Assembly: GCF_012027555.1 (NCBI RefSeq)
Contig: NZ_SNUQ01000001.1
Coordinates: forward strand, 620,001-684,000
Direction: 5' to 3'
Length of the DNA stretch: 64,000 nt
Source of the DNA: Thermococcus sp. CX2
GTDB taxonomy: Archaea; Methanobacteriota_B; Thermococci; Thermococcales; Thermococcaceae
In this document: piece after piece, positions 15,613-53,820 of the stretch
Position numbering within the stretch: the first letter of the stretch is position 1
Layout of the letters: the number at the start of each line of letters is the position of its first letter
Notes under the pieces: model-generated
Database searches by the model: none
What the model was told of the DNA's origin: nothing
Seen by the model: only the letters and a program-made list of their open reading frames with translations
Translations under genes and position numbers: made by a program

Positions 15613-15957
15613 TCACCCCGTCACCGTTCCGTTATGGGTGATTTGATAGAGCAGGCTCTGGTTCGAGTAGAACACCGGCTGGAAGTTTATCATGATAGTG
15701 TAGCTGAGCATCGTGAAGTAGAGCCAGAACAGGAACCAGCCCCAGAAGGCTCTCTTAAGCACCATTCTTTCGTCCTCAATTTCGGACGGCAGCTCCTTTA
15801 TGAGTGCCAGAACGAACTTGTCGATGACGAAGTACAGAGCAACGCCGAGCAGCCAGCCGTATTGGACCTTTGCCGCTGCTATTCCACTGATTAACCCAGT
15901 GATCAGTCCCCACAGATATACTGATAGTGAAAACTTATGTTCAACTGTCAGCCCCAC
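15613..15957 (-). CDS. Small membrane protein of unknown function
   Basis: Not recognised. About 114 residues, with a hydrophobic hairpin near residues 12-45 (LWGLITGLISGIAAAKVQYG, then a second helix) and a further helix pair near 70-95. A charged loop KELPSEIEDERMVLKRAF lies between them, and the tail is polar with a possible sequon. The GTG at 15957 has AGGTGA 5 nt upstream; another in-frame GTG at 15966 overlaps that site. It is immediately upstream of rpiA and probably co-transcribed with it, but nothing in the sequence ties it to sugar metabolism. Confidence 0.75.
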   Translation of the reverse strand: MGLTVEHKFSLSVYLWGLITGLISGIAAAKVQYGWLLGVALYFVIDKFVLALIKELPSEIEDERMVLKRAFWGWFLFWLYFTMLSYTIMINFQPVFYSNQSLLYQITHNGTVTG

Positions 15958-16005
15958 GTTCTTCACCTACGGTTAGCTTTTAAAAGATGGTTTAAAACCT
16001 TTCCG

Positions 16006-17346
16006 TTAAGCGGAGAGTGTCTCGAGGAACTTCCTGCCCTTCTCGGTTATGCCGTAGTAGACCCGCCTCCCCTTCCGATAGGATTCCTCTATCAGACCGA
16101 GGCTTTCCAGCTCGCGGAGATGCTGATAGACCGCTTGATACTTGAGGGGCTTCTCCAAGGCCTCCCAAATCTCATAGCCGTACATACTCCTCCCACTAAG
16201 GAGCTTAAGGATTTCCAGTTTTGTGCCACCAATCGCAAACTTCTCCCTGCTCTCGGAATAATGGCCCTTAAGGCCAGAACTCGTCACTATAAGGGCTATT
16301 CTATCGTCCCTATCAAAGTAGCCCTCCTCGGCAAGCTTGAGAAGAGCCGGGACTATAACAGCGGATGCATACTCCGCAAAGATGCCCTCCTTCGCGAGCA
16401 ACCTCTCACCGAGATCGAGCTCATCCTCCCCCACGAGAACAGCTGTCCCATCGCTCTCACGTATGGCCTCCAACGCCAGCTCCTTCGTGAGCGGGTTCTT
16501 TACGTACAGCCCAAGTGCCTTGGTCGGCTCTGCCTTAGGCTCGATGCCAAGCACCTCACTCGCTATGGGTGAGCACCTCTCAGCCTGAACCGCTATCATC
16601 CTGGGCATCTCATCGATGGCCCCGATGGTGAGGAGCTCTTTAAAGCCCTTGTAGATGCTGTAGAGGTTGCTGCCGCTCCCAGTAGGAACTATCACATGCG
16701 TAGGGCTAAGCTCCTCCCACAGCTCAAAGGCTATTGTCTTCTGCCCCTCAAGGCCCACTACGTTCCTCTCGGGCGTGACGTTGTAGAGCCCCTTGCCCTC
16801 GGCCAGTCCATCGGCGTAACTTATGCCCTCGTCAACGCTCTCGCCGTATCGTATTATCCTCGCCCCGAAGGCCGCTATCTGAGTGAGCTTGCACTTCTCT
16901 ATAAGCTTTGGGACAACTGTATAGGCCTCCTTGCCGGCACGTGCAGCGTATGCGGCAAGCGATGCCGCAGCGTTTCCGTTGCTGGCAACGACAAAACCAT
17001 TCTCAGCGTAGGGCAAACCGTGTGAAACAGCCACACTAACGAGCCTGTCCCTGAAGGAACCGGTCGGGTTCCTCGTCTCGTCCTTGATGAAGACGTTTAG
17101 GCCCAGCTCCTCCCCCAATTTAGCCTTCAAAAGGGGAGTCCCACCCTCACTCAGGCTCACAACTTCCTTGACGTCCGGAAGAAGCTCCCTATAGCGCCAG
17201 ACACCCTTAACACGGTTCCTCCACTTGGAAACGTCTATGGACTCGTAGTCGTAGGTTATCGTCAAGGACGCCCCACAGGAGCACTTAGGGGGAATAAGGG
17301 AGGAATAGACCCTCCCACAGGAGGGGCACTTCACCCGCATTTCCAT
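16006..17346 (-). CDS. Threonine synthase-like protein lacking the PLP lysine motif, fused to PadR-like winged helix
   Basis: 446 residues in three parts. First, an N-terminal zinc ribbon (CPSCGRVYSSLIPPKCSCG). Second, a fold-type II PLP-enzyme domain of the threonine-synthase family to about residue 365, with the phosphate-binding SNGNAAASL and the conserved PTGSGSNLYSIYKGF. Third, a C-terminal winged helix of about 80 residues (GGTKLEILKLLSGRSMYGYE, then YQAVYQHLRELESLGLI) like PadR regulators. At the position where the family has SFKDR, whose Lys binds PLP as a Schiff base, this protein has NPTGSFRDR: Arg99 (codon AGG, 17050-17052). Normal threonine-synthase catalysis is therefore unlikely, and a ligand-sensing regulator is a reasonable inference. 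The start at ATG 17346 overlaps the FttA stop in a TGATG junction; ATG at 17340 is an alternative. It is co-transcribed after FttA. Confidence 0.85.
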   Translation of the reverse strand: MEMRVKCPSCGRVYSSLIPPKCSCGASLTITYDYESIDVSKWRNRVKGVWRYRELLPDVKEVVSLSEGGTPLLKAKLGEELGLNVFIKDETRNPTGSFRDRLVSVAVSHGLPYAENGFVVASNGNAAASLAAYAARAGKEAYTVVPKLIEKCKLTQIAAFGARIIRYGESVDEGISYADGLAEGKGLYNVTPERNVVGLEGQKTIAFELWEELSPTHVIVPTGSGSNLYSIYKGFKELLTIGAIDEMPRMIAVQAERCSPIASEVLGIEPKAEPTKALGLYVKNPLTKELALEAIRESDGTAVLVGEDELDLGERLLAKEGIFAEYASAVIVPALLKLAEEGYFDRDDRIALIVTSSGLKGHYSESREKFAIGGTKLEILKLLSGRSMYGYEIWEALEKPLKYQAVYQHLRELESLGLIEESYRKGRRVYYGITEKGRKFLETLSA

Positions 17347-19301
17347 CACTTCAACCTGATCGCGTCGAGGTTGTTCGGAGCCCTTGTGCTGAGACCGAAC
17401 TTCTTGTGGATGCTCGTTGAGAGGTCGAGACACTTGTGCGCCTCTCCGTGGACGGTGATGACCCTCTCTGGCCTTGGCCTGAGGCGGGCAATGTAGCTCA
17501 TGAGCTCCCGTCTGTCTGCGTGACCGGAGAAGCCATCGATGGTGTAAACCTCCATGTTGACCTGAACGACCTCTGTCCTGCCATCCTCACCGACCAGTGG
17601 GATCTCACGCAGGCCGCGCTGCACCTGCCTTCCGAGCGTTCCCTCTGCCTGGTAGCTGACGAATATCATGCTGTTCCTCGGATCGGGAGCGAGCTGCTTG
17701 AAGTACTCAACGCTCGGCCCACCAACGAGCATGCCCGATGTCGCTATGATTATCGCCGGCTCGTCGCTGTCTATGATGTCCTGCCTCTCCCTGCTGTTGG
17801 CGACGCTCTTGAATATCGGGTTGAGGAACGGGTTGTAGCCCTCGTGGAATATCTGCTCGCGGAGGTGCTTGCTGAGGTACTCCGGATAGGCCGTGTGTAT
17901 GGCGGTTGCTTCCCATATCATTCCGTCGAGGTAAATGGGCACGTCTATGCCGCCGACGCGCGCGTACTCCTCGAGCACCATCATTATCTCCTGGGCTCTA
18001 CCGACGGCCATCGACGGAATCAAGACCTTGCCCTTCCTCCTGATGGTCTGGTGTATGATCTCTATCAAGCGCTTCTCGGCTTCCTCACGCGGCATCTGGT
18101 AGTCGTTGCTTCCACCGTAAGTCGATTCCATCACGAGGGTCTCCAGGCGGGGGAACCTGCTCACGGCTGGCTCGAAGAGCCTCGTGGGGATGAACTTGAA
18201 GTCGCCTGTTATGGCTATGTTGTGCAGTCCGTTGCCTATGTGGAGGTGGACTATGGACGAACCAAGGATGTGGCCGGCGTTGTGGAGCGTAAGCCTCATG
18301 TCCGGGGCAATGTCACGGACCTCACCGTAGTCAAGGGTTATGGTGTGCTTGATGACCTCCTTGATATCCTTCGGCCTGTAGAGAGGCTCCATACCGCTCA
18401 TCTGCTGGATTTCGATGAAGTCCTTCTGGAGGAGCACCATCAGGTCCCTCGTCGGCGGGGTCGTGTATATCGGCCCGTCGAAGAGGTTGAACCTGAAGAG
18501 GTAGGGCAGCAAACCGCTGTGGTCGAGATGGGCGTGGGTTATGATTATGGCATCAAGAAGGCCTGCATCCAGGACGTAGCGGAACTCGGGCGCGTCGAAG
18601 TGCGGGAAGGCCTTCTTTGGGTCGCGGAGGGCAGCTATATTGATACCAAAGTCGACCAGCACATAGCTCTCGTTGGTCTGGACGAGCAGCGCACTCCTGC
18701 CAACCTCACGGAAGCCTCCAAGGCCCGTGATTCTAATCCACTCACTCTTGAGCTCGGGCTTGCGGTAGATGTTCCTGCCCACCTGCCTGAGGAACTTCCT
18801 CCTGTCCTTGCTCTCAGTCTGAAGGATCTGCCGGATTGAGTAAATCGTCTGGGACTGTATGGGCGGTGTCCTTATAACGCGCGGCGCCCAGTGAACCTTC
18901 TGAGTGATTAAACGAAGCGTCTCGCCGTTCTTTCCAATGACGAGACCCGGCTTTTTGGCCTCTATTAGAACCTCACCGACAGATGGATCAAAGCTTATGT
19001 TGGTTATCTCGGCCTCAGGCGGGACGAGAGCTTTTATCATCTCCTCCGCGCGCTCAGGTGGGAGGAGAACGTCTGGATCAGGCCTTACACTTATCCTCTT
19101 CTTGAGCACCTTGGCGAGGTTCTTTATCAGCTCACCGTCCTGCATTATGGCCTCGGGATTCTTGACGTAAATAACCAGCTCCGGCCCCTCGAACTCAACG
19201 TCCGTAATCCTTGCCTCCTTAGGAACCATCTGGGAAATTACTGCTTTTATATCGCGTAGAATGTCATCAACGAAGGTCTCTCTCCTTATCAAAGCCACCA
19301 C
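17346..19301 (-). CDS. fttA: FttA / aCPSF1, KH-domain beta-CASP ribonuclease and transcription termination factor
   Basis: Archaeal CPSF73-like nuclease (651 residues) that releases RNA polymerase and cleaves nascent transcripts; the T. kodakarensis homologue is the termination factor FttA. Domains in order: two KH-like RNA-binding modules to about residue 145 (PSVGEVLIEAKKPGLVIGKNG carries the GxxG-type loop), a metallo-beta-lactamase core with the zinc motif THAHLDHSG, a beta-CASP insertion, and the returning nuclease segment with TIDGFSGHADRREL. The start is a cluster of GTG (19301), GTG (19298) and TTG (19292). 19301 fits homologue length best, whereas ribosome-binding-site spacing favours 19292. 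It begins 1 bp after the psmB stop and ends overlapping the thrC-like gene. Confidence 0.96.
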   Translation of the reverse strand: MVALIRRETFVDDILRDIKAVISQMVPKEARITDVEFEGPELVIYVKNPEAIMQDGELIKNLAKVLKKRISVRPDPDVLLPPERAEEMIKALVPPEAEITNISFDPSVGEVLIEAKKPGLVIGKNGETLRLITQKVHWAPRVIRTPPIQSQTIYSIRQILQTESKDRRKFLRQVGRNIYRKPELKSEWIRITGLGGFREVGRSALLVQTNESYVLVDFGINIAALRDPKKAFPHFDAPEFRYVLDAGLLDAIIITHAHLDHSGLLPYLFRFNLFDGPIYTTPPTRDLMVLLQKDFIEIQQMSGMEPLYRPKDIKEVIKHTITLDYGEVRDIAPDMRLTLHNAGHILGSSIVHLHIGNGLHNIAITGDFKFIPTRLFEPAVSRFPRLETLVMESTYGGSNDYQMPREEAEKRLIEIIHQTIRRKGKVLIPSMAVGRAQEIMMVLEEYARVGGIDVPIYLDGMIWEATAIHTAYPEYLSKHLREQIFHEGYNPFLNPIFKSVANSRERQDIIDSDEPAIIIATSGMLVGGPSVEYFKQLAPDPRNSMIFVSYQAEGTLGRQVQRGLREIPLVGEDGRTEVVQVNMEVYTIDGFSGHADRRELMSYIARLRPRPERVITVHGEAHKCLDLSTSIHKKFGLSTRAPNNLDAIRLK

Positions 19302-52743: not shown

Positions 52744-53820
52744 TTAAATACCTTGGGTTAGTTTAAGGCCCGAGCCGGTGAGGGGAAGGAGGACTTTCGA
52801 ACCCTCGGGGACAGAGCCGTCTTTTCTGAGCTTCCACAGGGCGGCCAACACCGTTGCTGATGTCGGCTCAACGATGAAGCCCCACTCCCAGAGCCAGCGA
52901 ATGGCTTCCGCTATTTCAGCATCACCAACGCTCATGCATTTCCCTTCGGTCTCGATTAGTATTTTCCTCATCTCTTCCAGCCTCGGCGGCTCCGGGATGG
53001 CTATGCCCTCTGCGAGGTGACTTTTCTCTTCCGAGCGCTTGCAGAGACTCTCGTAGCCGGAAGCCTGAACCGCCACAAAGTGGGGAAGCCTATCAATCTC
53101 GCCCATTTTTTTAAGCTCGTAGAAGCCTTTCCAGAGGCCGATGAAGAGGGAACCGCTGCCGGTTGGGACTAAAACGTAGTCTGGAACGCCAGTGCTCTCG
53201 TAAACCTCAAAGGCGATTGTTTTCGTCCCCTCGATGAAATATGGATTGAGCCAGTGGGAGACATAGGTGATGCCCCTCCTCTCGGCGAACTCGATAGCCG
53301 CCCTGTGGACTTCCATCCGCGAACCATCGATGACGTGAAGTTCTGTACCAAGTCTTTTCAAGAGTTCAAGCTTTCCGGAGCTTGTGCGCGCGGGCACGAA
53401 GATGTGGACGGATATTTCCTCAGCTTTGGAAAAAGCGGCCAGACTTAACGCCGCGTTGCCCGAGCTGTCGAGGACAACCTCAGTCAAGCCCTCCTCCATG
53501 AGCTTGGCAATTGTTACATAGGTGCCCCTGTCCTTGAAGGAGCCCGTTGGCTGGAGGTATTCAAGTTTGAAGAGCGCGTTTACTCCATCCAGGGCAAGCT
53601 CCACGATTGGAGTTATTGCCGGGATAATGACAGGTAGATGTCCCTCCGAGACGGGTAGAAAACTCAGGTAGCGCCTGATATCAAAGTGGTTCCGAAGGTT
53701 CTCCCCAAAGCGTCCGCTTATGTTCTTCTCCACGAAGAGGGTTCCCCCGCAGTCACACCTCAAGCGAAATTCCTCGGGATACCTGAGCCCACAGCGTGAA
53801 CATACAAGCACCCGAACCAC
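52744..53820 (-). CDS. thrC: Threonine synthase (PLP enzyme)
   Basis: 358 residues: an N-terminal zinc ribbon ([20 protein letters not shown]) and a fold-type II PLP domain. The Schiff-base lysine is intact in [10 protein letters not shown] (Lys96 counted from GTG 53820), with [13 protein letters not shown] for phosphate/substrate binding and [15 protein letters not shown] for the PLP phosphate loop. The family converts O-phosphohomoserine to threonine; some archaeal members make related products such as cysteate, so the exact substrate is not certain. GTG at 53811 has GGTGGT 4 nt upstream and is an alternative start. Contrast with the paralogue at 16.0-17.3 kb, which has lost the lysine. Its 5' end faces the divergent udp gene, 62 bp away. 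Confidence 0.9.

Follow-up and report, generated by a model that had tools for sequence, protein, structure and literature searches.

The fusion protein encoded at 16006-17346 on the minus strand of the window (the whole stretch of 64,000 nucleotides that was analysed) is very probably a transcription factor that keeps vitamin B6 in balance, acting as a PLP-responsive repressor of pdxS and of a predicted B6 importer. It likely represents a new family of PLP sensors that controls B6 synthesis and import in Thermococci, Bathyarchaeota/Thermoprotei and Asgard archaea, with a fold-type II origin independent of MocR and with the catalytic Lys lost in association with the fusion. As part of the same likely reading, it would be the first archaeal B6-responsive transcription factor, and NF004170 would be wrongly named.

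The ORF encodes 446 residues, and its ATG at 17346 overlaps the stop codon of FttA by one base, the A of the former being the final base of the latter. A zinc-ribbon-like N-terminal element (17275-17328, minus strand, as for all features of this protein) carries four cysteines, Cys7, Cys10, Cys22 and Cys24, that are nearly invariant in the aligned family. The fold-type II PLP enzyme domain, the predicted sensor, covers residues 63-355 (16282-17160; Pfam PF00291, PALP, E 5.5e-67). The predicted DNA-binding domain, with the motif QAVYQHLRELESLGLI, is a PadR-like winged helix at residues 373-445 (16012-16230), recognised by PF03551 over residues 379-442 (E 1.8e-9; 37.9 bits vs a gathering score of 27). 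An AlphaFold2 model built from a 34-sequence alignment (mean pLDDT 90) has the PALP fold, with a separate helix-turn-helix-wing at 374-445 behind a disordered linker at 360-372. The winged helix proposed in the first-pass annotation is thus present, at about 73 residues and not 80. The best Foldseek matches of the model are PLP-bound threonine synthases (6cgq, E 1.4e-29). The full-length protein, including the winged helix, matches the "threonine synthase" equivalog NF004170 (PRK05638) with 767.6 bits vs a curated cut-off of 421, but the functional name of this model is doubtful.

The translated ORF confirms that the family motif SFKDR reads SFRDR (residues 97-101), with Arg99 (codon AGG, 17050-17052) replacing the Schiff-base Lys. 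The PLP phosphate-binding loops are retained, also as first noted, at SNGN (residues 122-125, 16972-16983, including Asn125) and GSGSN (residues 223-227, 16666-16680). The C-terminal motif TSSGLK (residues 355-360, 16267-16284) is kept as well, and presumably marks where, in this fold, a residue contacts the ring nitrogen of PLP. Among 70 aligned Thermococcales rows, two of which do not cover site 99, Arg occurs in 66/68, so the substitution is not due to chance, sequencing error or a local mutation. The other 2/68 have Lys and come from two genomes, G002 and G003, of a genus (g2) which we take to be Palaeococcus. The G002 copy is a full fusion, whereas that of G003 runs off its contig before a winged helix would be reached. 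In two other genomes, one single-contig and one draft (L077 in G077 and L078 in G048), a frameshift breaks the regulator gene in two.

A scan of 84,980 species, one genome each, found remote fusion homologues in Bathyarchaeota, Baldrarchaeota, Freyarchaeota, Jordarchaea, Thorarchaeota, Lokiarchaeota, Sifarchaeum, Thermoprotei and a sister family in Thermococci. The winged helix is conserved across these phyla in the alignment of fused homologues. Site 99 is Arg in the remote fused proteins or else Ile (Thorarchaeota, Lokiarchaeota and one Bathyarchaeon), Leu (Sifarchaeum) or Val (one crenarchaeon), with no Lys in any full-length one in which the site is covered. Arg99, or an aliphatic residue in its place, co-occurs with the winged helix; the check proposed at the outset was such an alignment for Thermococcales homologues. 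Lys is found in a Njordarchaeota fragment (L150) that is truncated before its C-terminus, so that a fusion would not be visible. In one alignment all 23 unfused relatives have Lys, vs Arg 16, Ile 4, Leu 1, Val 1 and Lys 1 among 23 fused rows. The fused homologues keep the Asn of S-x-G-N, the glycine-rich phosphate loop and a C-terminal TGxGLK. Before GN (residue 123) most fused members have Asn or Asp, where most unfused enzymes have Ser or Thr, a shift which suggests that the substrate site is altered in the fused proteins.

The predicted targets are pdxS and a PF07155 ECF-transporter S component, which in the genome of the window lies at G000:C2:360820-361278 and is above cut-off in 80/94 Thermococcales genomes. 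At the S-component promoters that were read, a palindrome lies just behind the TATA box when the fusion gene is present, and no palindrome is found when the gene is absent. Its placement there suggests repression. Exact matches to AAGTTNNAACTTGAA in the 94 genomes fall mainly in S-component promoters and immediately upstream of pdxS (as in G073, G076, G080, G089, G090 and G093), with fewer sites elsewhere. Most of the other exact matches, at KaiC-like, moeA-like, ferredoxin-oxidoreductase and other genes, are inside genes or unrelated to them and were taken as chance. No exact match to the palindrome core occurs in any of the 94 that lacks the fusion gene. G052 at first appeared to have an operator without the gene, but the gene is present there and cut by a contig end.

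Scored as at least 13/16 matches to TTCAAGTTNNAACTTGAA, with a first-order shuffled background of 0.3%, the operator is found at the pdxS promoter in 44/47 genomes with the fusion gene vs 1/22 without it, and at the S-component promoter in 53/66 vs 0/12. Both promoters reach 13 in 33 of the 46 genomes that have both. Several genomes (G001, G031, G074, G075, G078, G079, G084, G086, G087 and G092, among others) have the fusion gene without pdxS, and keep the S component and its operator. In the genome of the window the pdxS promoter, ggctTATATTCAAGTTTTTCCTTGAGatt, lies about 35 nt before the ATG, and its site TTCAAGTTTTTCCTTGAG (G000:C6:50295-50312) is the only exact match in that genome to the relaxed pattern. 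A relaxed scan of the same genome at two mismatches was set aside, since a control pattern matches equally often, and it is informative only for this exact site. The S-component site is degenerate there (10/16), as are several Pyrococcus sites. No operator was found in the 64-kb window, so no autoregulation is seen.

The first-pass annotation set Lys in the same fusion against a regulatory role. This combination does occur in the Palaeococcus-type copies (one of them cut at the contig end, as above), yet the regulator reading survives, because these genomes keep operators: 15/16 at the S-component promoter in both, and 14/16 at pdxS in the one that has pdxS. Covalent PLP binding seems to be tolerated, as the genome with the full Lys fusion is among them.

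The joint loss of gene and operator supports their link and does not prove it. On a tree of FttA only two changes in presence of the fusion gene are needed, and independent-pair tests give one to two pairs. Fisher p values thus overstate the association, and co-loss was rejected as a phylogenetically independent test. Stronger arguments are the occurrence of one palindrome at two unrelated promoters of the same pathway, the linkage to transporter genes in several phyla and the PLP-type sensor domain. Operators in the remote clades are only partly similar and most are not individually significant; they were taken as suggestive and not as independent proof. Some clades have a common AGTTNNAACT core, and the operators of Thorarchaeota and Lokiarchaeota differ. 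Against shuffles, the sites score 0/500 (G125, S component), 3/500 (G129), 10/500 (G134) and 11/500 (G119 and G127), followed by 15/500 (G126) and 23/500 (G128); these last two and the five others are the only low scorers, uncorrected for promoter number.

The S-component gene directly adjoins the fusion gene in 9/20 remote genomes. It is divergent in L107, L112, L114, L115, L116 and L117 and downstream in L105 and L106/L363, and in G125 (L368) it is downstream of a second copy of the fusion gene. In L107 and L117 genes that read as an ECF ATPase and EcfT also adjoin. PF07155 is present in 19 of these 20 genomes and PdxS in only 4, many of the genomes being incomplete MAGs. The B6 transporters PdxU and PdxU2/HmpT belong to PF07155/COG4720 (PMC9997740), and pyridoxamine was found bound to HmpT as substrate (PMC4860826). 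Membership in PF07155 alone does not prove B6 transport, as the family is broad and its Pfam name refers to riboflavin; the S component could carry another compound. In several Thermococcus genomes (L176, 1811-3809, and relatives) the S component follows class-III aminotransferase-like and thioredoxin reductase-like genes.

The place of the gene in an FttA/proteasome operon had been thought striking. The linkage is indeed conserved, with the order psmB-fttA-fusion gene in every Thermococcaceae genus except g2, but nothing found gives it a functional meaning. FttA/aCPSF1 (17346-19301, minus strand) is the upstream neighbour by synteny only and is placed outside the system. In g2 and in the Thermococci sister family the fusion gene is located elsewhere, so that the linkage is not functional evidence, and a functional link to FttA or the proteasome was rejected on these grounds and on the lack of an operator in the window. 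The Thermococcales order has an echo in two Bathyarchaeota genomes, where some 5 kb separates the fusion gene from psmB- and fttA-like genes on its downstream side (L102, 8368-9826; L103, 12065-13330). A small membrane protein after the regulator (15613-15966 in the window) is conserved in most Thermococcaceae and has no Pfam or NCBIfam match. In g2 the regulator has moved beside genes that resemble those of polyamine synthesis, with an aminopropyltransferase-like gene in all three loci (L070, L071 and L081), an arginine decarboxylase-like gene nearby and an AdoMet decarboxylase-like gene in L071 and L081. This context was set aside as local to the genus.

The paralogue at 52744-53820 (minus strand), a PALP protein outside the system, does keep SFKDR, as reading of its ORF confirms. 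The conclusion drawn from it, a normal threonine synthase in this cell, remains unproven, since homoserine kinase was not detected in this genome (best TIGR00191 match 41 bits vs a cut-off of 168). This kinase (thrB) is above cut-off in only 35/94 Thermococcales genomes and does not track the fusion gene, and a link of the fusion to threonine biosynthesis was rejected. The fusion protein is thus not, and the paralogue not necessarily, part of threonine synthesis. The name of the paralogue, threonine synthase (NF006205), is for the same reason a doubtful guide to its real substrate.

In the proposed mechanism, the threonine synthase-like domain, with most of the PLP pocket kept and the covalent Lys lost, would hold PLP, or an adduct of PLP with an amino acid, as a reversible ligand. 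At high PLP levels the loaded dimer would set its winged helices on TTCAAGTTNNAACTTGAA behind the TATA box and block transcription of pdxS, encoding PLP synthase, and of the S component of the predicted B6 importer. A fall in PLP would lift the repression of both. An adduct as the actual ligand, or repression by the apo form, are possible variants of the same scheme. Palindrome binding, PLP as ligand and corepression are its predicted parts, and they build on what was observed: Lys is lost together with the fusion, palindromes lie at the two promoters and go with the presence of the fusion gene, and transporter genes adjoin that gene in remote genomes.

Could the protein still be a working PLP enzyme, a threonine synthase or similar, with Arg99 or another Lys in catalysis and the winged helix as an accessory? 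The NF004170 score of 768 bits, the Lys of the two Palaeococcus-type copies and the conservation of other pocket residues, including Lys153 and Lys203 in 23/23 fused rows, are in its favour. Yet Ile, Leu or Val at site 99 in several archaea makes catalysis by a basic residue there impossible in those proteins, the shift at residue 123 separates most fused from most unfused members, and homoserine kinase is below cut-off in this genome and in most Thermococcales. Since it also leaves the operators and gene neighbourhoods unexplained, an enzyme is very unlikely. A regulator that responds to an amino acid or phosphorylated amino acid, alone or as a PLP external aldimine, would suit a fold that normally binds amino-acid substrates, and the K41A mutant of O-acetylserine sulfhydrylase, which is in the Foldseek list (1d6s), holds a PLP-methionine external aldimine. 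The predicted regulon of B6 synthesis and uptake and the absence of ThrB from many genomes with the fusion gene argue against such a ligand, which is improbable.

The palindrome might instead belong to another B6 regulator and be tied to the fusion protein only through shared ancestry. The independent losses of the gene are few, and several genomes without it (G019, G020, G033, G050, G055, G065 and G067; for example loci L279, L273 and L274) have a different, TTCAAATCNNNATCTGAA-like palindrome at the pdxS promoter, both of which fit this explanation; it is nevertheless unlikely, because the fusion protein is implicated both by its PLP-type sensor domain and by the PF07155 genes that adjoin its gene in phyla far apart. 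The TTCAAATCNNNATCTGAA-like palindrome lies some 73-79 bp before the pdxS match and is possibly the site of a replacement B6 regulator. For the fusion protein itself, the original proposal of an inactive PLP enzyme joined to a winged helix, with the logic of MocR on another fold type, is strongly supported as a transcription factor. The predicted regulon of pdxS and PF07155, together with homoserine kinase being undetected here and in most Thermococcales, favours PLP or another B6 vitamer as the ligand and not the amino acid or phosphohomoserine-like compound that was also suggested.

These results name a candidate B6 transcription factor of Archaea with its predicted operator and targets, and no description of the fusion family or of an archaeal B6 transcription factor was found in the literature searched, most subscription journals being outside its scope. 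They would also explain a recurrent misannotation as threonine synthase and give a functional handle on archaeal PF07155 S components as B6 importers. The predicted target shares its Pfam family with the ECF S components PdxU and PdxU2 (HmpT), and is an archaeal homologue for which the B6 substrate is predicted. With threonine synthases (NF004170, NF006050, TIGR00260; 6cgq, 2d1f, 1v7c) the fusion protein shares the fold and the phosphate-binding loop, and with their archaeal relatives the zinc-ribbon-like N-terminus, but it lacks the catalytic Lys, has an added winged helix and is unlinked to threonine biosynthesis. The DNA-binding domain is that of the PadR family (PF03551), here placed at the C-terminus of a PLP pseudoenzyme. 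The closest parallel in logic is bacterial PdxR, whose regulon comprises pdxST and/or pdxK and the transporter pdxU (PMC5320631). In both, a wHTH is fused to a sensor domain derived from a PLP enzyme, and operators, here predicted, lie at genes for PLP synthesis and B6 transport. MocR proteins have an N-terminal wHTH of the GntR family and a fold-type I aminotransferase domain, and are reported absent from Archaea (PMC5320631, PMC4944035). The fusion protein is predicted to work like PdxR and yet not to be a MocR, since its wHTH is PadR-like and C-terminal, its sensor is a fold-type II PALP domain and its Schiff-base Lys is lost. If this reading is true, PLP enzymes have given rise to PLP-dependent regulators twice, each time independently.
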